From a virus: a stretch of 64,000 nucleotides of DNA. The notes below the pieces were generated by a model. The model was not told the DNA's origin, ran no database searches, and was given only the letters and a program-made list of their open reading frames with translations. This document shows, in pieces, positions 13,854 to 64,000 of this stretch (the stretch's first letter is position 1; the number at the start of each line of letters is the position of its first letter). The stretch is taken from IMG/VR virus record IMGVR_UViG_3300047471_000162, positions 48,904 through 112,903 of that record. The stretch is one strand, 5' to 3'. The position numbers and the translations under genes are program-made.

Positions 13854-13874
13854 TTAAATAGTAAATACATATTT

Positions 13875-13919
13875 AAAGGGTATATCTAGTAGTAATTATT
13901 ACTATTAGATATACCCTTT
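13875..13919. terminator. Bidirectional terminator after tail genes
   Basis: A near-perfect inverted repeat has outer arms AAAGGGTATATCTA and TAGATATACCCTTT (14 bp) and a further AGTAAT-T-ATTACT stem at the centre. It lies 22 nt after the last tail gene, and A/T-rich tracts on both sides suit termination from either direction. Confidence 0.75.
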
Positions 13920-13936
13920 AGTTGTGTATAAAGACA

Positions 13937-29302: not shown

Positions 29303-29348
29303 GAAGCTCCGTACCTGATAAGCTAGCGCTTGTTAGGTACGGAGCTTC
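29303..29348 (+). terminator. Terminator after SSB gene
   Basis: A perfect 14-bp stem GAAGCTCCGTACCT/AGGTACGGAGCTTC has an 18-nt loop and is followed by TTACTTT. It starts 12 nt after the stop codon. Confidence 0.7.
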
Positions 29349-37069: not shown

Positions 37070-37246
37070 ATGAGTGTTCCAACTCCCTTGTCTTGTCCGG
37101 GATCGTCAATGGCAGACCCTCACAAGTACAATCTCGTTCCAGGCAAGGGTGATGAGTTTGTATGTGACCGTTGTAAGCGTACTGTTAAATACGATAGCGT
37201 GTCACGAAGCTTTAAGGTTATCTATTCTGGAATGACGCCAAAGTAG
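37070..37246 (+). CDS. Small zinc-ribbon-like protein
   Basis: A 58-residue frame preceded by AGGAGG. It has a Cys at residue 9 and CDRC near residue 32-35, with a VKYDSVSRSFKVIY strand pair, typical of phage zinc ribbons. Confidence 0.6.
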   Translation: MSVPTPLSCPGSSMADPHKYNLVPGKGDEFVCDRCKRTVKYDSVSRSFKVIYSGMTPK

Positions 37247-37310
37247 TTGCTTGTATCACCATCCTCTAGTAGGATGCTGGTACTGGTCACTACTACCAAG
37301 GAGGCTATAA

Positions 37311-42076: not shown

Positions 42077-42560
42077 GCTACTAAAGCCCAAGGCTTGGAT
42101 AGGAATAGATCAATCCTATTCAGGCTTTGGGCTTATTAGGATTACAGAAGACGATGTAGTCTGCAATATCTGGGACTTTACCAAGAAGAAGCCCGGGGAT
42201 AGTGAGCGGCTAAGAATAATTATGGATATGGTTTCCCATGAATTATGGTGCTATGAACATAAATATGATTGCTCTTTAGCCATCGAAGGTTATGCTCATG
42301 GTGCTAAGTTCAACAGGGAGAAACTGGGAGAACTTGGCGGCATTGTAAAGTTAGCTATTTATGATGTATTTAAGTTGGAGCCGATCATAGTTCCACCTAC
42401 AGTATTAAAGAAGTACGTCACTGGTAAGGGTAATGCTTCCAAAGCTCAAATGATGGAAGGGGTAGCTAAAAAGTGGGGACCACAATTTGATAATGATAAC
42501 CTTGCAGATGCGTACGCGCTTGCTCAATACTGTAAAGAAAGTATGATAAACTCATCTTAA
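42060..42560 (+). CDS. RuvC-like Holliday junction resolvase
   Basis: This 166-residue protein has WIGIDQSYSGFG (Asp17), LAIEGYAHGAKF (Glu76), PPTVLKKYVTGKGNASK and DNDNLADAYALAQY, the four acidic positions of the RuvC/RNase H fold in order. It would resolve recombination branches before packaging. GTG start. Confidence 0.85.
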   Translation: MFGESELLKPKAWIGIDQSYSGFGLIRITEDDVVCNIWDFTKKKPGDSERLRIIMDMVSHELWCYEHKYDCSLAIEGYAHGAKFNREKLGELGGIVKLAIYDVFKLEPIIVPPTVLKKYVTGKGNASKAQMMEGVAKKWGPQFDNDNLADAYALAQYCKESMINSS

Positions 42561-42596
42561 CAACATGCCGCGCCTCCTCGGACGCCTCCTCTCCGG

Positions 42597-42633
42597 AAAA
42601 CCTCTATTCGCCTATGCGGTGAGTAGGGGTTTT
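42597..42633 (+). terminator. Terminator after resolvase
   Basis: The stem AAAACC(T)CTA.../...GTAGGGGTTTT is followed by CTGTTTT, the best U-run terminator in this half of the window. It closes the replication block. Confidence 0.7.
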
Positions 42634-42692
42634 CTGTTTTAACGGTACAATCAAATGTAGAATACTTTGGTAATATCAACATGGAGAAATCA

Positions 42693-46502: not shown

Positions 46503-46533
46503 AAGGGGTCAGTCCTTTCCAGGCTGACCCCTT
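46503..46533 (+). terminator. Terminator after Rpf gene
   Basis: AAGGGGTCAG/CTGACCCCTT, 10-bp stem with an 11-nt loop followed by TCTGTT, 5 nt after the stop. Confidence 0.75.
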
Positions 46534-50035: not shown

Positions 50036-51502
50036 ATGACAGATTGCGGCATATTAGATATCTCCCTATCTTATTTCGGACTAAGAAGACGTACTAAGTT
50101 CACCAAGCCTTGGCTTATACAGGATAAATTTAAAAGCAATCAGAATATCTTTATCGATTCTGGTTGCCATACCATTAATTCGGCTAAAGAACAGGTGTAT
50201 ACAAATGAAGAACTCAAAGGAATCGCTGAGCATTACTATTCATGGATCACTGACAATATCAGTGAAATTGAGATCTACTCTGAATTCGACTCAACGCAAC
50301 TTGGTGATAAATTCATTGAAGGGTATAGGGGTTCAGTTCAGAGCATTTCCCCAGATAAGTTCTTACCTATTTGGCACTCAGATTACGGGACAGATAATCT
50401 CCGCAGACTTGGAGAAACTTACGGACGCGTTGGAATTCTGCAAACGGCAATCGGCGGAAGAGACCTTGTCCCTGTGCTCAATAGTGTGGCAGCCAGAGGG
50501 ATAAAGCTTCATGGATTAGCTATGACTAAACCAGATATTATGCAGGCTGTTCCATGGGAATCTGTATCTTCTACTTCATGGATTTCTCCCATGCAGTATG
50601 GAGATACTATTATCTGGTCGCATAATCAGTTAAAAAGATATCCTAAGAAAATGAAGGATCAAGCTAGAAAGAAAGAAAGAGCCGCCTTTATGGCTGGTGG
50701 GTTCGATCTGGAGAAAATCTATGACGATGATGCACATGAATTATTACGTGTATCTCTGTGGTCATGGACCAAGCAGGTTGAAGCAATTAATCGTAAGACT
50801 AATAGAGGAGTAACTACACCCGTGAATTATAGTGATGATGAGTTCTCGGACTTTGACTCTGCTGATGTTGGTACTGTAGTGGATAGAGTGCAGAAGAGAG
50901 TACCAACTGCCCTACCTAGAAATCCTTCTGATAGACAGGTTATTCCTTTCCTTGATTTCGATATAGATATCGAGAAGAGAAAGAATAAGCTGACTGGGGA
51001 GATGGAGGATATTGAAGTTCCCAAGGTCAGAGTACGCAGCGAATCCATGCGTATTTGTGATACTTGTTTCCTCGCGGCTAAGTGCCCTATGTTCGAAGAG
51101 AATACAACGTGCGCCTATGATATTCCCATTGTTGTAGAAACCAAAGAACAGATGACTTCACTCATGAATTCTGTGGTTTCTATGCAAGCGCAGCGCGTTT
51201 TGTTCATGAAAATGGCTGAGGATACTTCAGGAGGATACGCTGATCCTGTACTTTCGGGAGAAATTGACCGCCTGGGTAAGCTTATGAAGACCAAGCATGA
51301 GATGGAACAAGAAGGTTTCAGTCTTACTGTTACAGCTAAGCAACAGGGTCAAATGTCTATGGTTGACCGTATCTTCGGCGATATAGGTAATACAAAGACG
51401 CTCCATGAGCTGGAAGCTCCAAGACAGGTATCGGATGCTATGTCTGATCTAGGTATTATGGACGCAGAACTTATTGAACTTCCACTTAGAGATGAGCTAT
51501 GA
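50036..51502 (+). CDS. TGT/DpdA-like protein with Cys-rich C-terminal domain
   Basis: This protein has 488 residues from ATG 50036. FIDSGCHTINSA, EIYSEFDSTQLG, GRVGILQTAIGG and KLHGLAMTKPDIM, then SSTSWISPMQYG, follow the TIM-barrel pattern of tRNA-guanine transglycosylase relatives such as DpdA. After residue 300 comes a different domain with CDTCFLAAKCPMF and a later Cys (four Cys in all). The same frame is open upstream to 49973 and encodes KLYYQGGELPTYKNI, the expected family N-terminus, but has no ATG/GTG/TTG; ATA 49988 is a candidate start. It could modify bases in DNA or tRNA. No queuosine-pathway genes are visible here. Confidence 0.6.
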   Translation: MTDCGILDISLSYFGLRRRTKFTKPWLIQDKFKSNQNIFIDSGCHTINSAKEQVYTNEELKGIAEHYYSWITDNISEIEIYSEFDSTQLGDKFIEGYRGSVQSISPDKFLPIWHSDYGTDNLRRLGETYGRVGILQTAIGGRDLVPVLNSVAARGIKLHGLAMTKPDIMQAVPWESVSSTSWISPMQYGDTIIWSHNQLKRYPKKMKDQARKKERAAFMAGGFDLEKIYDDDAHELLRVSLWSWTKQVEAINRKTNRGVTTPVNYSDDEFSDFDSADVGTVVDRVQKRVPTALPRNPSDRQVIPFLDFDIDIEKRKNKLTGEMEDIEVPKVRVRSESMRICDTCFLAAKCPMFEENTTCAYDIPIVVETKEQMTSLMNSVVSMQAQRVLFMKMAEDTSGGYADPVLSGEIDRLGKLMKTKHEMEQEGFSLTVTAKQQGQMSMVDRIFGDIGNTKTLHELEAPRQVSDAMSDLGIMDAELIELPLRDEL

Positions 51503-53220: not shown

Positions 53221-53610
53221 ATGCCTGCCTACGGTGAATGTGGCATTTACAACGAGAAGTGCCGCAATAAGACGTGCGATCACGTTACCAATCCGAACCG
53301 CAAGGTTCCGACTCTGGATTACGTGATGGATATCAAAGCGGCGAATGGTGTGCCGTTCCGAGTGGTGTACGGTGTGCGTAACGGACTGAGTGGGAAGCCG
53401 CTCACGACCTATCCTGTCGTGGCGTTCTACGACCGACGGTCTCAGCACACGGCATATGGCCAATTCGTCTCAGACTACCGGGTTGATGACTTGATGTGGC
53501 ACCCGTACTATGGTCTTAACCTTGATGGTGGGGTGGGTGCTTGGACGGTTGACATCAATAACATGGTGGTCATTATGGATTGGCTGGGAAAGCTGATCAA
53601 TCCTTTCTAG
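53221..53610 (+). CDS. Unknown early protein
   Basis: This 129-residue protein is preceded by AAAGGGG. Cys/His N-terminus (ECGIYNEKCRNKTCDHV) suggests a metal site; the rest is beta-rich with GAWTVDINNMVVIMDWLG. Unknown. Confidence 0.65.
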   Translation: MPAYGECGIYNEKCRNKTCDHVTNPNRKVPTLDYVMDIKAANGVPFRVVYGVRNGLSGKPLTTYPVVAFYDRRSQHTAYGQFVSDYRVDDLMWHPYYGLNLDGGVGAWTVDINNMVVIMDWLGKLINPF

Positions 53611-53615
53611 TGAGT

Positions 53616-53643
53616 TTGCGCCATTCTAGTCATGTACTAGGGT
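53616..53643 (+). promoter_or_regulatory. Possible promoter
   Basis: TTGCGC at 53616-53621, 16-nt spacer, TAGGGT at 53638-53643, 44 nt before the next start. Confidence 0.4.
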
Positions 53644-53686
53644 GGTGCAAGTTTCCTAAGGTAGGAAGCCTGTCAGGAGGTACTAA

Positions 53687-54223: not shown

Positions 54224-54239
54224 TTAGAGCGCTTGTATC

Positions 54240-54260
54240 ATTCCCCTACGCAAGGGGAAT
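54240..54260 (+). terminator. Terminator
   Basis: ATTCCCCT/AGGGGAAT stem with a 5-nt loop, 16 nt after the stop of the previous gene. Confidence 0.6.
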
Positions 54261-54308
54261 GGTGCTGGTTAGCTAATCGGCTAATCTCTTGACTGAAAAG
54301 GAATACCC

Positions 54309-55230: not shown

Positions 55231-55291
55231 AAATGCCTAATACCCTGTCTCTCCTGATTGTATCCCAGGAAAAACAGGGTATTAGGCATTT
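55231..55291 (-). terminator. Long hairpin, terminator of the 55290-55508 gene
   Basis: An 18-bp perfect stem (AAATGCCTAATACCCTGT with ACAGGGTATTAGGCATTT) has a 25-nt loop. The right arm overlaps the stop codon of the upstream minus-strand gene and the left arm is followed by A/T-rich sequence. Confidence 0.75.
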
Positions 55292-55508: not shown

Positions 55509-55538
55509 GATAATCCCTACCTAGTAAGCCATAGAGAC

Positions 55539-55559
55539 AGCCACCCGGTTAGAGTGGCT
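55539..55559 (-). terminator. Terminator
   Basis: AGCCAC/GTGGCT stem just downstream (leftward) of the gene ending at 55581. Confidence 0.5.
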
Positions 55560-55580
55560 ATCCCTAAAGCTCACCAGGGG

Positions 55581-56306
55581 CTAGAAACCAGTCTCAACAG
55601 CAGTTGCGGGAGCAACCGCATAGACAGGCACACTCGGGATCTCCACCATCGCGGGCGGGGCGTTCTCAGCCACCTTGCGCGCCACGTACTTAGTCCACCA
55701 ATCACGGGCAGTCTGCGTGAGGGACGCGTGAGCCATGTACCAGGCATTCTCAGAGACACCAGAATTCAGAGCCGCATCCGTCATGGCCGGGACGAAATCG
55801 GGCTCACTCAGAGCAAGCCCATTCTTCTCAATGTCCGACTCATACTCGGTTACTGCCATCACAGCGGGGGCACGCAGGGACTGAATCAGTGCGTTCATGT
55901 CATACTCTCCGATCACTCGCTCACCCTCATTGGCGTCGATCTCTCGGCGCTCCGTGGAATCCTCCGAGACAGACACGGTCACGTTTGCCCCGTCAGAGCC
56001 CACAACCGGGGTCGCAGCGGTCTGTACGGTGATGGCAGGCTTGGGGGTGCGGGAAGCCTTTACGCGGGGCTTGGGAGCCTCCATGGGCTCACCCGTCAGC
56101 CAAAGCTCTCCCCGATCCCCGTCGACAACGCGGGCATCCTGGTCATGGGTGTTCAGAAGCGTCATGACCACGGCAGCGGTAGAGTCCATCCGATCGGCCA
56201 CCTTATCCACCTTGACCGAATCGGCCCCACTCTCAGTCAGCATCTCGTCAATGGTCTCGACAACCATCTCAAAGGTGATAGCGGTAGCAGCAGTACGAGT
56301 AGCCAT
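55581..56306 (-). CDS. Unknown protein with winged-helix-like N-terminus
   Basis: This 241-residue protein has residues 10-75 (FEMVVETIDEMLTESG, VDKVADRMDSTAAVVMTLLN, GELWLTGE) that look like a winged helix. An Ala/Pro/Val-rich linker and a helical domain with ARDWWTKYVARKVAEN follow. It has its own promoter. Possibly an early regulator. Confidence 0.65.
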   Translation of the reverse strand: MATRTAATAITFEMVVETIDEMLTESGADSVKVDKVADRMDSTAAVVMTLLNTHDQDARVVDGDRGELWLTGEPMEAPKPRVKASRTPKPAITVQTAATPVVGSDGANVTVSVSEDSTERREIDANEGERVIGEYDMNALIQSLRAPAVMAVTEYESDIEKNGLALSEPDFVPAMTDAALNSGVSENAWYMAHASLTQTARDWWTKYVARKVAENAPPAMVEIPSVPVYAVAPATAVETGF

Positions 56307-56356
56307 TTTCTTGCCTTCCGTCTGGATTCCTTAGGACTAGGAACCTCACACCACCT

Positions 56357-56385
56357 ATCTAAGCGTGTCAGATAGATGATGTCAA
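56357..56385 (-). promoter_or_regulatory. Promoter of the 55581-56306 gene
   Basis: Minus strand: TTGACA (56385-56380), 17-nt spacer, TTAGAT (56362-56357). Confidence 0.7.
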
Positions 56386-56389
56386 GCCA

Positions 56390-56593
56390 CTAGTTCTTCG
56401 TGATCTTGCCATCCTTGATGAACGAGCCAACAACCCACAGAATCGGCCAAAAGGCACCGACCAGAGAGCTTGTGATGAACGCGACACCCTTACTGCGTCC
56501 GTTCTTACGCTCCGAGCGATAGAACTTACCCGCCGCCCCCAGAGCGTCAGAAGCGTACATACCGAAGAGAGTGCCATAAAGGAACAGGTTCAT
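56390..56593 (-). CDS. Small membrane protein
   Basis: This protein has 67 residues from ATG 56593 (AAAGG 7 nt upstream; ATG 56599 is alternative). Hydrophobic ends (NLFLYGTLFGMYASDALG and GVAFITSSLVGAFWPILWVV) around a basic loop. Unknown. Confidence 0.6.
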   Translation of the reverse strand: MNLFLYGTLFGMYASDALGAAGKFYRSERKNGRSKGVAFITSSLVGAFWPILWVVGSFIKDGKITKN

Positions 56594-56636
56594 GTCCATG
56601 CCTTTCGGTTGCGGCCCCATCTAGGAACCTGAGAGG

Positions 56637-56665
56637 ATCTAAGCACGAGTCTCAGACCCTGTCAA
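56637..56665 (-). promoter_or_regulatory. Promoter of the 56390-56593 gene
   Basis: Minus strand: TTGACA (56665-56660), 17-nt spacer, TTAGAT (56642-56637), identical boxes to the previous unit. Confidence 0.7.
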
Positions 56666-56669
56666 GCCA

Positions 56670-56864
56670 CTAGCTAAGCCACCAGATCAACAATCCGATT
56701 CCCGCGAGAAAGATCAACGGGAACAGGGCGAAGATCAGGCAACAACCACGGGCGAGGAAGGTGGCCAGAGGACCCTCGTGTCCGAAACCATTTTCGAATG
56801 CACTTCCCATCCTGTACAGGAGGTTCGCATCCATGGTGCTTTTTTTGCGCATCCATTTCGGCAT
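56670..56864 (-). CDS. Small membrane protein
   Basis: This protein has 64 residues from ATG 56864 with AAAGG upstream. Basic N-terminus (PKWMRKKS) and C-terminal helix (CLIFALFPLIFLAGIGLLIW). Unknown. Confidence 0.6.
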   Translation of the reverse strand: MPKWMRKKSTMDANLLYRMGSAFENGFGHEGPLATFLARGCCLIFALFPLIFLAGIGLLIWWLS

Positions 56865-56905
56865 TTCAAAGCCTTTCCTAGTGGACCACTCCCTCACACA
56901 GAGCA

Positions 56906-56934
56906 ACCTATACCCTGTGTGGGGTGGAAGTCAA
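56906..56934 (-). promoter_or_regulatory. Promoter of the 56670-56864 gene
   Basis: Minus strand: TTGACT (56934-56929), then ATAGGT after 17 nt or TATAGG after 16 nt. Leader about 35 nt. Confidence 0.6.
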
Positions 56935-57066
56935 CTAGTCGGTCGCTTCACGGTTGTAGCGGTAGTACGGATGGCACACGCTACACACAAAGTGTTTGAC
57001 TCCGCGCCAGTAGCTATGAAATCGCAACCATGAGACATCATGGCCACACTCTTCAAGCCTGGCCAT
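56935..57066 (-). CDS. 43-residue zinc-type protein
   Basis: The minus-strand frame encodes ARLEECGHDVSWLRFHSYW then HFVCSVCHPYY, a Cys/His cluster typical of zinc ribbons. It starts 2 nt after the upstream gene's stop. Its stop is next to the following promoter. Confidence 0.55.
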   Translation of the reverse strand: MARLEECGHDVSWLRFHSYWRGVKHFVCSVCHPYYRYNREATD

Positions 57067-57068
57067 GA

Positions 57069-57248
57069 TCAACGCTCCGTGAGCCACGGGGAACCGGCGG
57101 CCACGGGGAACTCATAGCCATACGGGTAGGTCTTGTTCGTCTTGCTGGTCACCTTGACCACTACGAAGTCTCCGAGCATGTCTCGACCCTCGCGGACAAC
57201 CTTACCGAGCACGACACCGGACACCATGGACGAGTAAGCAACCTTCAT
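57069..57248 (-). CDS. Unknown 59-residue protein
   Basis: The minus-strand frame encodes KVAYSSMVSGVVLGKVVREG and TYPYGYEFPVAAGSPWL, a small beta protein. The ribosome-binding site is weak (GAAGAGA). It belongs to the unit starting at 57559. Confidence 0.55.
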   Translation of the reverse strand: MKVAYSSMVSGVVLGKVVREGRDMLGDFVVVKVTSKTNKTYPYGYEFPVAAGSPWLTER

Positions 57249-57292
57249 GGGAATATCTCTTCTCTGTGTTTGTGATGGAGAGCTAGGGGAGA

Positions 57293-57559
57293 TCAGGCAG
57301 AAACGAGGGACTGGCGGATACGCTCACGGGTCATGGTGTAGCCGCGCATGAGGGAATCATACCGGTCGCGGTCGAGTTGAGTCCAGCGGTTGATACCCAC
57401 ACCGGAATGGTCTTCGAACCCGCCTTCATGCAAAGGCATGGGCTCTGCGAAGTCGTAGCCGTAGCTTGCGATCATCCGACCGTGCATGATCTGTACAGCA
57501 GCGCGGAACTTGCGCACGTGCGGGTGATTGGCGATCGCGGTAGCAAGCTTAAGATTCAA
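57293..57559 (-). CDS. Unknown protein
   Basis: This 88-residue protein has a TTG start preceded by GAGGGAG. Helical and His/Arg-rich (LATAIANHPHVRKFRAAVQI). Unknown. Confidence 0.6.
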   Translation of the reverse strand: MNLKLATAIANHPHVRKFRAAVQIMHGRMIASYGYDFAEPMPLHEGGFEDHSGVGINRWTQLDRDRYDSLMRGYTMTRERIRQSLVSA

Positions 57560-57588
57560 TGTGCTCCCTCTCTGTTCGGTGTGGCTCT

Positions 57589-57617
57589 AGCCTGCCATCC
57601 CAGCCTAAGGAAGTCAA
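57589..57617 (-). promoter_or_regulatory. Probable promoter of the 57559 unit
   Basis: Minus strand: TTGACT (57617-57612), 17-nt spacer, CAGGCT (57594-57589). The -10 is weak. Confidence 0.5.
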
Positions 57618-57638
57618 GCCTTAGACCAGAAAAGCTCT

Positions 57639-57914
57639 CTAGCGACAGAACATACAGAGAAAGATCAACCCTAGTTCACACGGTCCATCGAATGCATTCG
57701 AGTGATCTTCAACCAGGCGCGTCAAACCTTCCATGTAATTACCACAGGAGTCACACCTACCCGGACCCTTTGTCCCGTGCATCTCACGAATATTGATACG
57801 CCCCTTGAGCCAGCGTGCGTCTTCTTCCATGATCACACCGGTGTCACAGTCACCAGTGATACACATGAGATCGAATTCGATGCTCTCAAGTTCTGCAATC
57901 GACCACTTACGCAT
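57639..57914 (-). CDS. Zinc-type protein, unknown
   Basis: This protein has 91 residues from ATG 57914 with GAGAGG upstream. Acidic N-terminal helix; CDSCGNYMEG and a terminal CMFCR give four Cys for one zinc. Confidence 0.6.
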   Translation of the reverse strand: MRKWSIAELESIEFDLMCITGDCDTGVIMEEDARWLKGRINIREMHGTKGPGRCDSCGNYMEGLTRLVEDHSNAFDGPCELGLIFLCMFCR

Positions 57915-57924
57915 GTCAAGCCTC

Positions 57925-58074
57925 TCAGTGGTTGTTGTAGCAGTACGGGGACACGGCAGCGGCACGAACCGTGATGACACGTCGCAGGATATCGTATGCA
58001 AGCGTGTGCACAGTGCAGCTCTGGTGATGCTTCAACCGGCTTTTACCAGCCTTGATAGTCTGTCGGACGTTCAT
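57925..58074 (-). CDS. 49-residue basic protein
   Basis: The minus-strand frame has GAGAGGGGC upstream and encodes RQTIKAGKSRLKHHQSC and YDILRRVITVRAAAVS. Basic; possibly binds nucleic acid. It is the first gene behind the promoter at 58133-58105. Confidence 0.55.
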   Translation of the reverse strand: MNVRQTIKAGKSRLKHHQSCTVHTLAYDILRRVITVRAAAVSPYCYNNH

Positions 58075-58104
58075 AGTCTGCCCCTCTCGTTCGGTATGTT
58101 GTGC

Positions 58105-58133
58105 AGCCTAGCCGATGAGGCCTGTTGCGTCAA
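58105..58133 (-). promoter_or_regulatory. Promoter of the 58074 unit
   Basis: Minus strand: TTGACG (58133-58128), 17-nt spacer, TAGGCT (58110-58105). It lies over the 3' end of the upstream gene. Confidence 0.65.
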
Positions 58134-58476
58134 GCCCCTTGGCACGGCGCTTACGTCGATACAGCCGCTCATAATTGGTGAGGATACACCAATCTCCCCC
58201 GGATTCGTCACTCAGGATCTGAATGTCGTAATCATTGGCGAGAAGAAATGACCTTACGATCATGACATTAGTCCAGTTCTCGAAGAACAGACCATATGTG
58301 TACTCGAAATTGATTCCGCTCTTGTAGAACTCATCAATTTCACTGATGTAAAGCTGAAATCGGGGATATTCTCCCTTTTGCTGCTCTAGCCATTGGTGGC
58401 GATATCCTCGCCAAAGCACATCATCAATGATCAGACGTTCAACATCACCGTCTGTTATGGTCAACTTAATTTCCAT
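58108..58476 (-). CDS. Unknown protein
   Basis: This 122-residue protein is preceded by GGGAGG. Begins EIKLTITDGDVERLIIDD, like small phage beta proteins; middle Tyr/Phe-rich; basic C-terminus (YRRKRRAKG). Unknown. Confidence 0.6.
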   Translation of the reverse strand: MEIKLTITDGDVERLIIDDVLWRGYRHQWLEQQKGEYPRFQLYISEIDEFYKSGINFEYTYGLFFENWTNVMIVRSFLLANDYDIQILSDESGGDWCILTNYERLYRRKRRAKGLDATGLIG

Positions 58477-58506
58477 ATAATACCTCCCTGATTGATTCAG
58501 TAAGTC

Positions 58507-58545
58507 ACAGGGACTATAACCCGTTAGAGCTACGTGATTCCCTGT
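58507..58545 (-). terminator. Possible terminator
   Basis: ACAGGGA/TCCCTGT stem with a 25-nt loop after the gene ending at 58561. Confidence 0.4.
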
Positions 58546-58560
58546 AACAAGCTCAACCTA

Positions 58561-58953
58561 TCAGCTCTGAGCGTCGCTGTCCATCATCTGGCGGGCGAAC
58601 GTGGAAAGCCCGTTGATAGCCTGTGCAAGTTCCTGCCGTGCCTCACGACGGATCCGACCGCTTGCCTTAGTGGCAGCCTTACGCGAGCTTGCAGCGCTCA
58701 CACGCTCACCGTTGGGCGCCAGGATAGCGAACGACTCAGGCACCCCAATGCACTGAAGAAAGTAGAGGTCATTGGAGCGGATTCCCTGTGCCTTCAGAGC
58801 CCGAATCAGGCCGAGACGGGATTCCGTCTCCATCACAATCGGCATGCCGTGCAGACGCGTCTCACGGAGCGTGTGAGAGCAACCGGCAGCGTGGATACGG
58901 ATACTCTCATCGGACTTGACGAAAGCGGCCAGTGAAACACGCGAGTTCGACAT
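58561..58953 (-). CDS. Unknown protein
   Basis: This 130-residue protein has AAAGG upstream. RIHAAGCSHTLRETRLHGM suggests a small alpha/beta domain; the C-terminal half is a basic helix (ASSRKAATKASGRIRREAR). It is the first of five genes with the CTGAATT leader stem-loop. Confidence 0.6.
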   Translation of the reverse strand: MSNSRVSLAAFVKSDESIRIHAAGCSHTLRETRLHGMPIVMETESRLGLIRALKAQGIRSNDLYFLQCIGVPESFAILAPNGERVSAASSRKAATKASGRIRREARQELAQAINGLSTFARQMMDSDAQS

Positions 58954-58972
58954 TTGAAATGCCTTTCATAGT

Positions 58973-58995
58973 CTGAATTACCCTTTGTAATTCAG
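58973..58995 (-). repeat. CTGAATT leader stem-loop, copy 1
   Basis: CTGAATTA/TAATTCAG, 8-bp stem, ends 20 nt upstream of the 58953 start codon. Confidence 0.7.
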
Positions 58996-59038
58996 CCATA
59001 ACCACTCATACATTTCTGTATGAATGATTAAAGCTTAA

Positions 59039-59401
59039 TTACAGATCATCCGCGAAATAGTCGATAATATCCGCGATCTGGTCGAAAGTCAGGTGAAAGA
59101 GGTCATTATCCGTACTGAGAGCGGACTCATAGTTTTCGTCAATGCCATAATCTCCGTGACTGCTGCTCATTCCCGCCCACAGACGAATAGTGGAAGGAAG
59201 CGAGCCGTAATTGCCGTCGAAAAGCGTGTCATTATCCTCGTCCTGAACGATATCGATCTGAAGTCCTTCACGCTTGGCTACCATCCCGAGCACTCCAAGA
59301 CAGCAATACTGACCACTACAATCCTGCAATGCGCCACGCCCCTGGTAAAACTCACCACTACGGAGAGCAGTGGTCCAGAGCTTAGCCTTTGCACGGTCCA
59401 T
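59039..59401 (-). CDS. CCLGVL-family protein, paralogue A
   Basis: This 120-residue protein is preceded by AAAGG. It has LWTTALRSGEFYQGRGAL, YCCLGVLGMVAKREG, WAGMSSSHGDYG and a C-terminal FDQIADIIDYF. The same order of motifs occurs in the next two genes. The family is frequent in actinophages but its function is unknown; the adjacent Cys pair may bind metal or form a disulphide. Confidence 0.75.
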   Translation of the reverse strand: MDRAKAKLWTTALRSGEFYQGRGALQDCSGQYCCLGVLGMVAKREGLQIDIVQDEDNDTLFDGNYGSLPSTIRLWAGMSSSHGDYGIDENYESALSTDNDLFHLTFDQIADIIDYFADDL

Positions 59402-59419
59402 GGTGAAGCCTTTCGTTAG

Positions 59420-59438
59420 CCGAATTCCTATAATTCGG
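59420..59438 (-). repeat. CTGAATT-type leader stem-loop, copy 2 (variant)
   Basis: CCGAATT/AATTCGG, 7-bp stem, 19 nt upstream of the 59401 start codon. Confidence 0.65.
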
Positions 59439-59445
59439 TCAGTAA

Positions 59446-59490
59446 GCTATTCATCCTATATTCCGTGAGAAATACGTGGTGATGAATAGC
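59446..59490 (-). terminator. Terminator of paralogue B
   Basis: GCTATTCATC/GATGAATAGC, 10-bp perfect stem, 13 nt after the stop of the gene 59865-59503. Confidence 0.6.
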
Positions 59491-59502
59491 AAGCTGATCT
59501 AA

Positions 59503-59865
59503 TTACAGCTCAGAAACCCGCGCGTCGATCACGTCAGCAATCTGCTCGAAGGTATAGCTGTCGACGTCGTTGTGCCCTACGAGCGAGCACTCCTCTTCGC
59601 GCTTCTGATTGAAGTAGTAGCCGTCACCCGAATGCATTCCCGCCCAGATAACTACCTCATCGGGCAGAATACCGCGCTTGTTCCCATAGAAGACCGTGCC
59701 ACCGGAGTTCACTGTACGGATGGTGACTCCTGACTCGGCAGCAAGCGCGCAGAGAACCCCGAGACAGCAATTCCTGCCATCGGCAGTCTCAAGCATTCGC
59801 ACGCCCTGCTCGAATTCGCCACTCCGAAGCGCAGCGGTCCAGAGGTCAGCCTTATCCTTGTGCAT
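59503..59865 (-). CDS. CCLGVL-family protein, paralogue B
   Basis: This 120-residue protein is preceded by GGGAG. LWTAALRSGEFEQGVRML, NCCLGVLCALAAESG, WAGMHSGDGYYF and YTFEQIADVIDARV align with paralogue A along the full length. Same leader stem-loop. Unknown function. Confidence 0.75.
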   Translation of the reverse strand: MHKDKADLWTAALRSGEFEQGVRMLETADGRNCCLGVLCALAAESGVTIRTVNSGGTVFYGNKRGILPDEVVIWAGMHSGDGYYFNQKREEECSLVGHNDVDSYTFEQIADVIDARVSEL

Positions 59866-59882
59866 GCTACTCCCTCATTTAC

Positions 59883-59903
59883 GCTGAATTCCGTTAATTC
59901 AGC
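59883..59903 (-). repeat. CTGAATT leader stem-loop, copy 3
   Basis: GCTGAATT/AATTCAGC, 8-bp stem, 18 nt upstream of the 59865 start codon. Confidence 0.7.
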
Positions 59904-59906
59904 CAT

Positions 59907-59935
59907 AACCATTCCCGTACGAGACGGGAATGGTT
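59907..59935 (-). terminator. Terminator of paralogue C
   Basis: AACCATTCCCGT/ACGGGAATGGTT, 12-bp perfect stem with a 5-nt loop, directly next to leader copy 3. Confidence 0.7.
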
Positions 59936-59944
59936 AAAGCTCAA

Positions 59945-60340
59945 TTACAGGGTTTCGTAGTTCTCACGGATATATGCAGCGATTTGGGGGAAAGAAACAC
60001 CACCATCATTAGCCGTGGTCAGCCCGTCCCAACCGCCAAACTTGGCGCTCTCTGCGAATTCACCCGTAAGGGTTCGCATGCCCGCCCAAGCCATGGTGTT
60101 GATGGTCAGAACACCCGAGCTCTCAGAGGGGTAATCATTCTCACCACTCTGCACGTCCACACACTTAACGGCATCTGCATAGCTAAGCGGAATCCAGACA
60201 GCAATTCCTGCTTCTACTGCCATCTCACTGAGAACACCCAGGCAACAGAACTTACCCTCTGCGAGCAGGTTACCCCTACCCTGCTCGTACTTGCCCGACT
60301 CCAGCCGATCGGCCAAATCCATAGCGATGTGCTTATGCAT
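59945..60340 (-). CDS. CCLGVL-family protein, paralogue C
   Basis: This 131-residue protein is preceded by GAGGGAG. LADRLESGKYEQGRGNL, FCCLGVLSEMAVEAG, WAGMRTLTGEFA and FPQIAAYIRENY align with A and B, with a longer middle. It is the most diverged member. Confidence 0.75.
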   Translation of the reverse strand: MHKHIAMDLADRLESGKYEQGRGNLLAEGKFCCLGVLSEMAVEAGIAVWIPLSYADAVKCVDVQSGENDYPSESSGVLTINTMAWAGMRTLTGEFAESAKFGGWDGLTTANDGGVSFPQIAAYIRENYETL

Positions 60341-60359
60341 TTCGTCTCCCTCATGCTGT

Positions 60360-60381
60360 GCTGAATTCCTATTAATTCAGC
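60360..60381 (-). repeat. CTGAATT leader stem-loop, copy 4
   Basis: GCTGAATT/AATTCAGC, 8-bp stem, 20 nt upstream of the 60340 start codon. Confidence 0.7.
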
Positions 60382-60449
60382 CAAACCGACTACCAGAATT
60401 ATGCTGCTAATCAATAGCGTATTTGCTGGTAATCAGTCAAGCGGAATTA

Positions 60450-60575
60450 CTAGAACATCTTCTTAATGAAGCACAGCCCAACAATAACAAAGATAATGTA
60501 AAGAACGAACCCCACGATACTGATTCCGGCACCGATTCCCAGAATCCACAGAAGGACAGTGAGCGCGGTCATCAT
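60450..60575 (-). CDS. 41-residue membrane protein
   Basis: The minus-strand frame with AAAGGA upstream encodes one or two membrane helices (TVLLWILGIGAGISIVGFVL and YIIFVIVGLCFI) and a KKMF end. Unknown. Confidence 0.55.
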   Translation of the reverse strand: MMTALTVLLWILGIGAGISIVGFVLYIIFVIVGLCFIKKMF

Positions 60576-60597
60576 TTCAGAAATCCTTTGTTAGGAA

Positions 60598-60894
60598 TTA
60601 CATGTACTTGTCTGACAGAGTTTCCAGGAGCTCTGCCAGACTCTCCCACTTTTCGCGTTCCTCTGGCAAGAGGTTCTTACGAACTGCAATGTACACGTCT
60701 CCGAGAGATCGTGCCAGCGTGGTGACCTTGATTTCCGGCGCACGCTCTAGAGCATTCTTTGCCAGCTCAATACGATCCTTTACAGCCCAGTAATGGGTGT
60801 CAGAATCGTCATCACTCACAGCGTAGTGATTGAAGAGTTTAATCTGATCCGAGAATCGCGATTCCAACATGGCAAGTGCCTTGTCGTTGCGCAT
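60598..60894 (-). CDS. Unknown helical protein
   Basis: This protein has 98 residues from ATG 60894 with AGAGG upstream. Helical (LAMLESRFSDQIKLFNHYAV, LLPEEREKWESLAELLETLS). It has a promoter at 61055-61027 and perhaps a weaker TTGACA at 60954-60949. Confidence 0.6.
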   Translation of the reverse strand: MRNDKALAMLESRFSDQIKLFNHYAVSDDDSDTHYWAVKDRIELAKNALERAPEIKVTTLARSLGDVYIAVRKNLLPEEREKWESLAELLETLSDKYM

Positions 60895-61026
60895 CCTGCT
60901 GCCTCTCGTTGTCTTGCTGGTGTAGATCCTTGCGTATTCGGTGGTGCTTGTCAACCCTGTGCATCCTGGCTTTCGTTGACCCTCATTCGGGTGTCTGACC
61001 AGTGCTGCGTTGTGCTGACAGGTAGG

Positions 61027-61055
61027 ACACTAGTTGAGTCCATCGACCCTGTCAA
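61027..61055 (-). promoter_or_regulatory. Promoter of the 60894 unit
   Basis: Minus strand: TTGACA (61055-61050), 17-nt spacer, TAGTGT (61032-61027). The leader to 60894 is about 130 nt. Confidence 0.65.
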
Positions 61056-61132
61056 GCCCTGCCCCGAAGCTCTGTAGAGCCCCTAGGAGGCTCTGTGAGA
61101 CGCACCCTAGGCAGTTGGTCTAGGAGGTATGG

Positions 61133-61166
61133 CAGAGGCCCCTAGAGATGGTTCTAGGGGCCTCTG
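61133..61166 (-). terminator. Strong terminator
   Basis: CAGAGGCCCCTAG/CTAGGGGCCTCTG, 13-bp perfect stem with an 8-nt loop, just after the gene ending at 61171. A second smaller AGAGCC/GGCTCT hairpin lies near 61076-61094. Confidence 0.75.
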
Positions 61167-61170
61167 TGAC

Positions 61171-61443
61171 CTACGCGTCCGGGTGTCTGTTGGCTAGTTG
61201 CGACTTGGCCCTCCGGTAGACCCCATCCCATGGCTGGTACATGTCACGGTCAGGAAACCAGGGGTTGGCCGTTACGCACATAGCCATGATCAGTCGCAGG
61301 TCATCCGCACGGAATTCCGGCGCATCGAATGCGGGACAATCAGGCACGTCCTTACAAGGCACCACAACGACTTTCGGAATTCCTCCCGTATGTTGGGGTG
61401 TCAAAATAAAACCATGCGTGCATTGCTCTGCGGCGTGAAGCAT
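61171..61443 (-). CDS. Unknown protein
   Basis: This 90-residue protein is preceded by GGGAG. Several Cys/His (AAEQCTHGF, VPCKDVPDCPAF) and an Arg/Trp-rich C-terminus. Unknown. Confidence 0.6.
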   Translation of the reverse strand: MLHAAEQCTHGFILTPQHTGGIPKVVVVPCKDVPDCPAFDAPEFRADDLRLIMAMCVTANPWFPDRDMYQPWDGVYRRAKSQLANRHPDA

Positions 61444-61445
61444 AA

Positions 61446-61700
61446 TTACTCCCTGTGCCCCTTATACAGTTGCAACAAAAGCTCTGCCGCAATCAGTTGA
61501 TCAGGCTTATAAGTGGAAAGGTCGTTCATGCGACATAGTCCAGACTCAATGACAGACAACTGATCCTCTGTGAGCCCTGACAGGGTATAGGTGGGCACAG
61601 TCGTCTTAGTGAGCCGTGCGCCTGTCTGTATGCCGTTAGGACGGCATGCACAGGGATACGTATCGATCACTACGTCGCACTTGTCACAGAGCTGACTCAT
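61446..61700 (-). CDS. Small zinc-type protein
   Basis: This 84-residue protein is preceded by GGGAGG. CDKCDVVIDTYPCAC near the N-terminus is a zinc site; the C-terminal half is helical (DQLIAAELLLQLY). Confidence 0.6.
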   Translation of the reverse strand: MSQLCDKCDVVIDTYPCACRPNGIQTGARLTKTTVPTYTLSGLTEDQLSVIESGLCRMNDLSTYKPDQLIAAELLLQLYKGHRE

Positions 61701-62017
61701 CAGTCCTCCCTCACGTAGTGAAGGGTGTCCTCACTGCTGTCTCGCAATTCGCGACCAGTGGGATTCTCCTCCTGCCAATCCAGTGACACACTATCATTGG
61801 CCAGCAGCACCTTACGGAAATGGTCCGTGATAGCCCAGAGGAATACCTGTTCCCATTCCCCATTAGTGCGCTGATACGGCAGAGAACGGGACTCTCGACC
61901 GTGATAGTAGAGAATATCCTCCCCGAACATGCGAAGAACTGTCACGGGGACACCCTTGTAATTCTCGGTGTCCACCACCTGAATCATTTCGTTCGGTAGG
62001 TCAATGGAAATACGCAT
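61700..62017 (-). CDS. Unknown protein
   Basis: This 105-residue protein overlaps both neighbours by 1 nt. Begins RISIDLPNEMIQVVDTENY; acidic alpha/beta protein. Unknown. Confidence 0.6.
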   Translation of the reverse strand: MRISIDLPNEMIQVVDTENYKGVPVTVLRMFGEDILYYHGRESRSLPYQRTNGEWEQVFLWAITDHFRKVLLANDSVSLDWQEENPTGRELRDSSEDTLHYVRED

Positions 62018-62208
62018 TAGCCGATTACCTCGATTCGCTTAAGGGATGCCGGGGCAAGGATCAAATCCAGAATGAATACCTTGTACGCCGCGATTCCGCG
62101 ACCGTGCATTTTGTCGTACTGGGCATCATCATAATCCGACTGGCTACACTCTCCAATCTTGTATTTCTCCTCCCCATTCTTATCGGAATAGGTTACTTTC
62201 ACCTTCAT
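62017..62208 (-). CDS. Unknown small protein
   Basis: This protein has 63 residues from ATG 62208 with GGAGGAAA upstream. KVKVTYSDKNGEEKYKIGEC then a helix and hydrophobic tail (VFILDLILAPASL). First gene of a unit with leader copy 5. Confidence 0.6.
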   Translation of the reverse strand: MKVKVTYSDKNGEEKYKIGECSQSDYDDAQYDKMHGRGIAAYKVFILDLILAPASLKRIEVIG

Positions 62209-62238
62209 AGTATTTCCTCCATAATTGGCTGAGAATAC

Positions 62239-62263
62239 CGAATTCAGATTTTGGCTGAATTCG
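62239..62263 (-). repeat. CTGAATT leader stem-loop, copy 5
   Basis: CGAATTCAG/CTGAATTCG, 9-bp stem, 31 nt upstream of the 62208 start codon. Confidence 0.65.
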
Positions 62264-62277
62264 ATACACAAAGTCAA

Positions 62278-62376
62278 TTACTTCTTACGCTTTCGGGGTT
62301 TCTTGGAATTCGCAGGTCTGATTACCACAAATACCATGAGAATAAGTGCTCCCACGATGAGAATGTCACCAGCCAT
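62278..62376 (-). CDS. 32-residue membrane peptide
   Basis: Starts at the TAATG junction with the gene before it. One membrane helix (DILIVGALILMVFVVI) and a very basic end (KKPRKRKK). Unknown. Confidence 0.55.
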   Translation of the reverse strand: MAGDILIVGALILMVFVVIRPANSKKPRKRKK

Positions 62377-62450
62377 TATGCATCACCCTTTCCCGTCAGG
62401 AATCCCAGGAAGAATACTCCCAGGCCTACAATTATGACGAACCAAAACAT
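62376..62450 (-). CDS. 24-residue membrane peptide
   Basis: A frame with AGGAG upstream encodes FWFVIIVGLGVFFLGFLTG and a short acidic end. Coupled to the next membrane peptide, so the two may act together. Confidence 0.5.
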   Translation of the reverse strand: MFWFVIIVGLGVFFLGFLTGKGDA

Positions 62451-62491
62451 TTCTACTCCTAGATGAGGTTACAAGTGTGCTGCTGAGTGTA

Positions 62492-62668
62492 TCAGCTCGC
62501 CCCATCGAACATGCCACGGGCACGGCAAACAGAGATCAGGCGACAGACAGAACCACTACGGCACGCTCCACACGTCTCCCGGTGCTTACTCATCCATCGC
62601 GCAGAGGGAGAGCGGTGAGCCGAGTAGTCGGCGCGAGCCAGATCCTGGCGAGTCTTGCGCTTGCTCAT
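62492..62668 (-). CDS. 58-residue basic zinc-type protein
   Basis: A minus-strand frame with AAGGAG upstream. Very Arg-rich, with CGACRSGSVC and a further Cys; likely a nucleic-acid-binding zinc protein. Confidence 0.6.
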   Translation of the reverse strand: MSKRKTRQDLARADYSAHRSPSARWMSKHRETCGACRSGSVCRLISVCRARGMFDGAS

Positions 62669-62736
62669 GTTGTACTCCTTAGAGGCTCTGGGCGCCTGTC
62701 TGACGCCCGTTGGTACTGCGGTTGGACTGAGAGACC

Positions 62737-62771
62737 AGGGAGGGACCTAGAGGCTGTCTACGCCCCTCCCT
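62737..62771 (-). terminator. Terminator of the 62783-63778 gene
   Basis: AGGGAGGG/CCCTCCCT, 8-bp stem with a 19-nt loop, 12 nt after the stop. Confidence 0.6.
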
Positions 62772-62782
62772 AGCCATTTTTG

Positions 62783-63778
62783 CTAACCCCAGGGCAAGCC
62801 GCGCTTGTCCGCGCACGTGGGACCGTAGCCCACACCCTCACTGCGCGGGTCCGTGAGAGACAGGGTGCAGAACACGCAACGGTGGAACGTGTGGCCAAAC
62901 GTGGCCGCCTGCTCTGCTGTTGCGAGCATTTCAGGAGTGAGCCGCTTGATGACACCCTTGGGGGTGGCATCCCAATTCCAGCACTCGTCAGCCCAGACAA
63001 TCGCGTAAAGGTGTCCAGCCCGGGCACGGTGAATCTTGTAATACTCACCACCCATCACGCAAATGTCATCCTCCTTAAGGCCAAGCTTTTCGACCTTAGC
63101 GGATTCCGCCTTAACAACCTTGGCGCTTTCGGACCGCTTAGCAGCGAAAAGTGAATCAATGGCGGGCGAAATCTTTGCCCATGCCACTGTGTTGTGCCAT
63201 TCCTCCGTGTAAATGGTGAGAAGAATATCGGCGGCCTGCTGATTCAATTCCCCAATTTCGGAAATCAGTCGGTTAATCAAATCAGCTTGTGCCGGACTTG
63301 TTCCACACTTGGACTTACGGGCAGGCTTTCCCTTGCCCGCGATGGAGTGATCCCCCTTGCCACCCTTCATGATGGTAATGGAGGCCTTAGCATCGTCAGC
63401 TCGCAAATTCGGCTTATCCAGGATCAGCATGAGCGTACCAATCCAGCACGCGTCATTCTCGGTACCATCGGCGTAGTCCGAGAGCACATCACGGAACATT
63501 GACAGCTGAAATGCCTGATATTTCTGGGCAATCAGTTTCTGGGTGTCAACGTGCTTATGGTTGCTGATACAGCCCTGAATGAGGCTCCATGCGTCACCCT
63601 TGGGCATCTCCAACGACGTCACGCCAGAGATACGGCTACACGTCTTGCAGAGGGGAGCGTCACTGTCACCAGCACGCATTACGGACCGACCGCACAGAGT
63701 CGCGTCTCCACCCCGAGACAGGTGATTCACCTTCCCGCCGTAAAGCATCCCGCTGGTGAGTCCGTTGCTGGTGATCAT
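62783..63778 (-). CDS. Unknown protein with C-terminal DUF6011-like zinc domain
   Basis: This protein has 331 residues from ATG 63778 with AGAGGGAG upstream. An N-terminal Cys cluster (LCGRSV, LCKTCSRI) is followed by a helical middle with Lys/Ala repeats (ESAKVVKAESAKVEKL). The C-terminus HRCVFCTLSLTDPRS, then GYGPTCADK, matches the DUF6011 zinc-ribbon pattern found in phage and host proteins. Largest gene of the minus-strand set. Unknown function. Confidence 0.7.
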   Translation of the reverse strand: MITSNGLTSGMLYGGKVNHLSRGGDATLCGRSVMRAGDSDAPLCKTCSRISGVTSLEMPKGDAWSLIQGCISNHKHVDTQKLIAQKYQAFQLSMFRDVLSDYADGTENDACWIGTLMLILDKPNLRADDAKASITIMKGGKGDHSIAGKGKPARKSKCGTSPAQADLINRLISEIGELNQQAADILLTIYTEEWHNTVAWAKISPAIDSLFAAKRSESAKVVKAESAKVEKLGLKEDDICVMGGEYYKIHRARAGHLYAIVWADECWNWDATPKGVIKRLTPEMLATAEQAATFGHTFHRCVFCTLSLTDPRSEGVGYGPTCADKRGLPWG

Positions 63779-63901
63779 GTTCCCGCTCCCTCTCGCCTGA
63801 CTGACAGGGACGACTCTAGAGGATTGAGCCGCCACTGTCTATGCCCTTTGACCAGCGGTTTTTACCTAATCGCAAGATCGATCTGTCGTGAGGTGACACG
63901 G

Positions 63902-63930
63902 CTGTTACAGCATGCCTTGTCACATGTCAA
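63902..63930 (-). promoter_or_regulatory. Promoter of the 63778 gene
   Basis: Minus strand: TTGACA (63930-63925), 17-nt spacer, TAACAG (63907-63902). Leader about 120 nt. Nothing else is seen up to the window end. Confidence 0.6.
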
Positions 63931-64000
63931 GGGGCAAGGGAGCTAGCCCAGTGTGTTAGGCCGTTCTAGCCCCTTTGCAGAGCTTCCTAGAACTCGCCGC

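Follow-up and report, generated by a model that had tools for sequence, protein, structure and literature searches.

A conserved intercistronic RNA element with covarying stems in BRock-like Streptomyces phages

In phage T7, RNase III processing sites are located between the early genes, and in leader attenuators and three-segment RNA switches one segment pairs with either of two others. The T7 site R1.1 is a model substrate of RNase III (PMC6121014), and cleavage by this enzyme upstream of pnp in Streptomyces coelicolor (PMC4681348) is counted here as a precedent for the processing proposed below. Among actinophages, the Cluster K mycobacteriophages carry start-associated sequences (SAS; 13 bp) and extended start-associated sequences (ESAS; with a conserved 17-bp arm), for which the authors found little support for RNA hairpins (PMC3203893). 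In this study, we describe an RNA element found in a 64,000-nucleotide (nt) stretch of viral DNA (the window), corresponding to positions 48904-112903 of the 112,903-base IMG/VR virus record IMGVR_UViG_3300047471_000162. The element belongs to a family that is conserved on the mRNA strand in BRock-like phages and reaches from a gene's stop codon to just 5' of the Shine-Dalgarno (SD) region of the following gene. Its most likely role would be to separate neighbouring cistrons of a polycistronic mRNA, by processing or stabilisation.

The DNA polymerase and DnaB helicase encoded in the window share 58-62% identity with those of the Streptomyces phages BRock, LuckySocke, Alone3, GiJojo and pSt2308 (additional relatives in IMG/VR: 59-71%), and by these protein similarities the phage is a member of the BRock/LuckySocke group. 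The original prediction for this locus comprised a five-copy CTGAATT stem-loop placed at a fixed distance from the start codons of a five-gene regulon (18-20 nt in four genes, 31 nt in the fifth). Four GGCTGAATT..AATTCAGCC-type hairpins are indeed present on the minus strand, at 58973, 59420, 59884 and 60361, 18-20 nt 5' of start codons (hairpin end to ATG approximately 19, 18, 18 and 20 nt for the genes starting at 58953, 59401, 59865 and 60340, respectively). Perfect CTGAATT-N-AATTCAG arms were found at 58973-58995, 59884-59902 and 60361-60380 (3 in the window vs 0 in 100 shuffles; the heptamer CTGAATT by itself is not rare there, with 17 occurrences vs 10.5 expected), and the compensated CCGAATT..AATTCGG arms proposed for copy 2 are present at 59420-59438. 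The fifth copy (62239-62263) has the inverted arm order AATTCAG..CTGAATT, stands 30-32 nt from the start codon and is the upper stem of another element. The regulon was wrong in detail, as the window contains eight well supported elements. Overlooked were a larger hairpin before copies 1-4 and at least four other elements elsewhere in the window. When the leaders of copies 1-4 were folded whole (z-scores of -3.4 to -6.3), a longer hairpin, termed A, was found before each copy; copies 1, 3 and 4 (and copy 2, in a degenerate form) make up the 3' end of a larger RNA element lying between cistrons.

In the order of the mRNA, this element consists of a CUAG/CUAG or UAAU/AUUA basal stem, the stop codon of the upstream gene usually falling within its 5' strand, a 4x4 internal loop, a clamp (CUUUA/UAUGG), a variable stem and a loop. 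The consensus of 31 distinct elements begins and ends with CUAG; on either side four bases, mostly free, separate it from CUUUA and UAUGG, respectively, which enclose the variable stem and loop. The letters CTTTA and ATGG were set by the search pattern, the remaining positions were not. From the foot inward, the clamp is composed of C-G, U.G, a U/U mismatch, U-A and A-U, followed by the variable pairs. Position 6 is U.G or G.U in all 31 elements and a wobble in 72 of 73 distinct elements picked for the U.G and U/U signature; in these 73 the basal stem is 90% paired, vs 59% with the 3' flanks exchanged. The core measures 36 to 49 bases, and one subtype has the sequence CUUGCAUC/GGUGUUGG. A survey of both strands, with the CTTTA/ATGG pattern not imposed, gave 715 hairpins in which a single mismatch lies outside the upper stem; among them, the U/U mismatch plus U.G was the commonest signature (78 hairpins, 74 of them with an SD-like sequence and an open reading frame (ORF) on the 3' side). 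A second signature, a U/C mismatch with an outer G-C pair (22 hairpins, 21 before ORFs), probably corresponds to the basal stem (CTAGTGAG/CTTCCTAG) found in the TTGACATC subtype.

The upstream stop codon starts at one exact site of the 5' basal strand (UAG of CUAG) in 39/74 elements and between -8 and +2 in 72/74; in copies 1 and 3 the UAA of UAAU serves as this codon. The distance from clamp to start codon is 17-29 nt in a short type of element and 33-56 nt in a long type, in which the last stem lies mostly ~18-22 nt 5' of the start codon. Hairpin B, an optional 3' part of the element represented here by copies 1-4, was stronger than in shuffled sequences for 15 of the 33 elements of the long type at p<=0.05 (for 20 at p<=0.1) and for 3 of the 40 of the short type. 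As it occupies the 3' basal strand, it is in competition with the basal stem. The CTGAATT strand of copies 1, 3 and 4 can pair upstream or downstream, and the two folds differ by 0.1-1.2 kcal/mol. Strong upstream hairpins precede 13 of 16 right-arm genes of LuckySocke (gaps of 50-130 nt) vs 3 of its 34 structural genes (any gap), and the leaders of BRock resemble those of LuckySocke.

We aligned 14 elements of BRock and four IMG/VR relatives without gaps, leaving this phage out. In this alignment, 94.6% of the cells are paired, 18 of 21 pairs have changed on both sides and the covariation score is 0.871, vs 0.224 (standard deviation 0.030) after shuffling; with the partner shifted by one to three columns, the score fell to 0.13-0.28. 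For 71 model-aligned sequences the score was 0.861 vs 0.209, in an alignment that is biased to structure, and in several orthologous leaders the fold is kept with the letters replaced. The proposal of a leader RNA element with preserved pairing, for which a lack of covariation in relatives had been named as one half of the refuting condition, has passed this half and is strongly supported. When G.T and A.C were scored alike, G.T outnumbered A.C several-fold in the stems on the mRNA strand, a comparison made without composition control. Relative to a composition baseline from exchanged arms (G.U 180, A.C 73), G.U was observed 173 times and A.C 8 times, in a set selected with G.U tolerated, so that the equal-scoring comparison is the cleaner one. 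The massive covariation and the spread in relatives therefore indicate selection on RNA structure rather than a DNA operator, and we are highly confident that the element is a selected RNA structure. The hairpin is very probably a working, previously undescribed part of phage messenger RNA, whose function is proposed here on the basis of sequence.

Two covariance models, with rough E-values, were applied: R1, built from the 14 elements above, and the wider R2, which was run over the window and, with filters off, over 12 kb. R1 recognised six elements in the window (E 2e-14 to 7e-7), three of which precede copies 1, 3 and 4, and R2 added 37242-37294 and, in its unfiltered 12-kb run, 62224-62278. 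On the minus strand, before gene 58561-58953, hairpin A with its basal stem occupies 58988..59041 (R1, E 1.7e-9), its first three bases being the stop codon of gene 59039-59401 (offset 0); hairpin B of copy 1 (58973..58997; exact pattern) takes the 3' strand of this basal stem as its own 5' strand, the alternative folds having -31.3 and -30.4 kcal/mol. Before gene 59039-59401, also on the minus strand, folding gave a clamp-less hairpin at the A position (59447..59491), with no match to R1 or R2, and hairpin B of copy 2 (CCGAATT/AATTCGG) is seen in sequence and fold at 59420..59438. The next minus-strand element, before gene 59503-59865 (59895..59947; R1, E 1.2e-7), starts at the stop codon of gene 59945-60340 and is joined by hairpin B of copy 3 (59883..59904, minus; exact pattern; alternative folds -30.9 and -29.7 kcal/mol). 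The element before gene 59945-60340 (60373..60449, minus; R1, E 7.1e-7) has an extended apical part, lies directly 3' of the stop codon of gene 60450-60575 and is joined by hairpin B of copy 4 (60360..60382, minus; exact pattern; alternative folds -30.5 and -30.6 kcal/mol). Copy 5 forms the upper stem of the minus-strand element before gene 62017-62208 (62224..62278; R2, E 6.7e-5 in the unfiltered 12-kb run, and fold), which R2 did not report at default filters.

Elsewhere in the window, minus-strand elements were identified at 57587..57642, before gene 57293-57559 (R1, E 3.5e-9), the protein of which has relatives in all five named phages, and at 55521..55577, before an ORF of 72 amino acids (aa) starting at ~55508 (R1, E 1.9e-14). 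Plus-strand elements are located at 54224..54276 (CUUGUAUC subtype, with a possible hairpin B 3' of it; R1, E 3.2e-8) and 37242..37294 (before a 55-aa ORF starting at ~37311; R2, E 4.2e-7). A probable element precedes a 178-aa ORF (53607..53659, plus; R2, E 0.002 over the window and 3.7e-4 with filters off over 12 kb), and a possible one, with TTGACA in its 5' strand, precedes the 241-aa gene 55581-56306 (56337..56393, minus; R2, E 0.0027, filters off).

Each of the 14 IMG/VR records searched, among them that of this phage, gave covariance-model matches, although six of these records had been found via the motif pattern itself and are thus not independent of it; related records hold 1 to 12 elements each (first model). 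A search of viral contigs with CTAG plus the clamp pattern returned 16 stretches, many in known BRock-like contigs, and six newly found contigs match the RNA model too. Two other pattern searches were set aside as chance: the single stretch found with CTAG plus clamp in genomes (Enterococcus), and the 45 stretches with exact GGCTGAATT..AATTCAGC in IMG/VR, nearly all with one site, which by a rough estimate are at chance level. Nine other actinophages gave no element match (one weak partial R1 match was not confirmed by R2). Rfam 15 yielded no match in 56000-64000 of the window at E up to 1, nothing at gathering score across the whole window and, in relatives, one chance-level match far under its gathering score. 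The element is not described in the open-access papers searched, nor is it mentioned in the BRock genome note. The RNA family appears new, its kind (an intercistronic cis-acting RNA hairpin) being a variant of something known.

As its mechanism we favour endonucleolytic processing combined with a protective 5' hairpin, with a probability of roughly 0.4. Hairpin A, long and with fixed weak points, would be a candidate site for a double-strand-specific endonuclease, e.g. the host RNase III (AbsB). A cut, or a transcription start inside the element, would release the 3' basal strand, which could refold with the downstream segment into hairpin B, and this may act as a protective hairpin near the 5' end of the mRNA of the next gene, just beyond the ribosome footprint. 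This reading draws on the covariation, the six elements found with R1, the distribution among phages, the SD and ORF context, the stop codon position, the strand shared with hairpin B and overlapping promoter-like sequences, and, as at T7-type RNase III sites, a long intercistronic double-stranded stem (~17 pairs plus the basal stem) precedes the next ribosome site. The promoter-like sequence TTG-N17-TANNNT, which presumably resembles the Streptomyces housekeeping promoter, was counted in 121 leaders (this window plus the right arms of four named phages) and occurs in 18 of them at spacing 17, with at most 4 at any other spacing. Many such pairs, often with TAGGNT, overlie hairpin A in a subset of elements of right-arm leaders, and a transcript start is therefore expected near the foot of hairpin B. 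Several points weigh against processing: the exact position of the stop codon better fits a translation-linked role or gene packing, short-type elements are without hairpin B, no element can be recognised at some genes that have similar gaps (copy 2 being degenerate), the E-values are rough and the 73-element set was selected by signature.

A ribosome-sensitive translation switch or coupling element is a possible, tentatively held alternative. As a switch, a ribosome terminating in the basal stem would open this stem and the weak clamp, and the freed CTGAATT strand would pair downstream as hairpin B, altering access to the next start; as a coupling element, hairpin A would merely juxtapose the stop codon and the SD sequence for re-initiation. 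This alternative is consistent with the stop codon fixed in the 5' basal strand, with the nearly isoenergetic, mutually exclusive folds of copies 1, 3 and 4, with the constant weak points at the hairpin base and with the placement of the last long-type stem relative to the start codon. However, the SD sequence is hidden by neither fold, roughly half of the elements have no hairpin B, in 25/74 the stop codon is located immediately 5' of the basal stem and compact gene packing could yield the same stop position. A more far-reaching version, in which the element would be a new class of cis-acting phage RNA, namely a clamp-recognised, ribosome-actuated three-segment switch that acts from each stop codon and tunes each gene within one polycistronic mRNA, is regarded as doubtful.

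The put RNA of phage HK022 acts on RNA polymerase in cis, and the present element might likewise act on RNA polymerase, or be bound by an RNA-binding protein of the phage or the host, being read via the clamp with its U.G, U/U and wobble positions. We consider this unlikely. The clamp positions are constant within a variable stem and their signature prevailed in the unrestricted survey, but up to a dozen copies stand between consecutive genes, unlike put, and the candidate Ro-like protein found here is also encoded by phages that have no such element. A link between the element and this protein was rejected on the same ground, as Ro is present in actinophages that lack the element. The Ro-like (TROVE) RNA-binding protein is encoded inside a tRNA gene array in LuckySocke (L142 10965-12551), pSt2308 and BRock.

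That the repeats are only a DNA operator (a repressor palindrome) or a promoter palindrome is very improbable. They are inverted repeats and TTG-N17-TANNNT overlaps a subset of them, but this sequence is absent from most CUUUA-class elements, the arms vary freely with compensation and the spacing of the constant parts varies by more than 10 bases. The retention of G.U and purging of A.C on the mRNA strand, the gene-facing orientation, the variable arm length and the compensatory changes therefore argue against an operator, and the operator reading that the original prediction had left open is disfavoured, stem letters differing both between copies and between orthologous leaders; a site for one DNA-binding protein was rejected because the arms are not conserved. 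TTGACA in the loops of CUUUA-class elements was likewise discarded as a promoter, no -10 hexamer being found at standard spacing on inspection. A promoter of another type may precede the genome-end genes LS_20747, LS_22132, BR_869 and BR_2681, in whose leaders the hexamer found 17 bases after TTGACA resembles GAGA or GAAA and not TANNNT.

Intrinsic terminators placed between the genes are equally improbable: the hairpins are strong and stand immediately 3' of stop codons, but no T-run follows them and a terminator scan gave no site at the elements, on which ground this candidate was rejected, and neither a conserved clamp nor hairpin B is a terminator feature. The least probable reading, that the leaders were copied along when genes duplicated in tandem, would suit the paralogous genes 59039-59401, 59503-59865 and 59945-60340 (30-44% identity), but copy 1 precedes an unrelated gene and relatives carry the element, with different stems, before unrelated genes, which refutes it as a full explanation. 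These three tandem paralogues (59039-60340, minus strand) encode proteins of ~120-131 aa assigned to phrog_18067 (unknown function), a family with further relatives at 34-43% identity; a paralogue gene used as a query had no match in the phage collection, in a near-DNA search or in tblastn.

Other features of the window include a very long, almost perfect hairpin (55232-55290; 25 pairs counted) between plus- and minus-strand genes, perhaps a bidirectional terminator, and strong clamp-less plus-strand hairpins, possibly terminators, at 13873-13921, 29303-29348, 42084-42134, 42594-42636 and 46503-46533. A Queuine tRNA-ribosyltransferase family protein (phrog_887) is encoded at 50036-51502, and GiJojo has, at the corresponding map position, a protein with the annotation DpdA-like.

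The element provides a searchable RNA motif, with up to approximately a dozen copies per genome, in a phage lineage in which nearly all small genes are unannotated. It may aid gene calling, as it marks the stop and start of adjacent genes, and its function is directly testable, since the isolated phages BRock and LuckySocke carry it. Compared with known systems, it resembles the T7 early-gene RNase III sites (R1.1 and others) in being a long intercistronic hairpin with an internal loop before the next ribosome site, and differs from them in the constant U.G, U/U and wobble clamp, the stop codon in the stem and the competing hairpin B, cleavage here being putative. We know of no T7 site with these three features. 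With the S. coelicolor pnp leader it would share RNA processing 5' of a gene, in the likely host genus, although processing is putative here and the pnp leader is a single host site (PMC4681348). As in leader attenuators and three-segment switches, one segment has two alternative partners, but neither fold hides the SD sequence or forms a terminator. The ESAS of Cluster K phages come nearest to the element among described actinophage features. The Cluster K SAS and ESAS are likewise repeats 5' of the start codons of a subset of non-structural actinophage genes, with an inverted repeat before the ribosome site (PMC3203893). The 13-bp SAS GGGATAGGAGCCC, searched in the window with up to 3 mismatches, gave 5 matches vs 14.3 expected (best 2 mismatches), none at an element. 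Unlike the arms of ESAS, which are conserved and have little support for RNA pairing, those of the present element are variable with compensatory changes and covary freely, and the element spans the region from stop codon to start. This contrast with a mycobacteriophage repeat judged not to form RNA hairpins makes it testable how actinophages separate or couple their densely packed genes.

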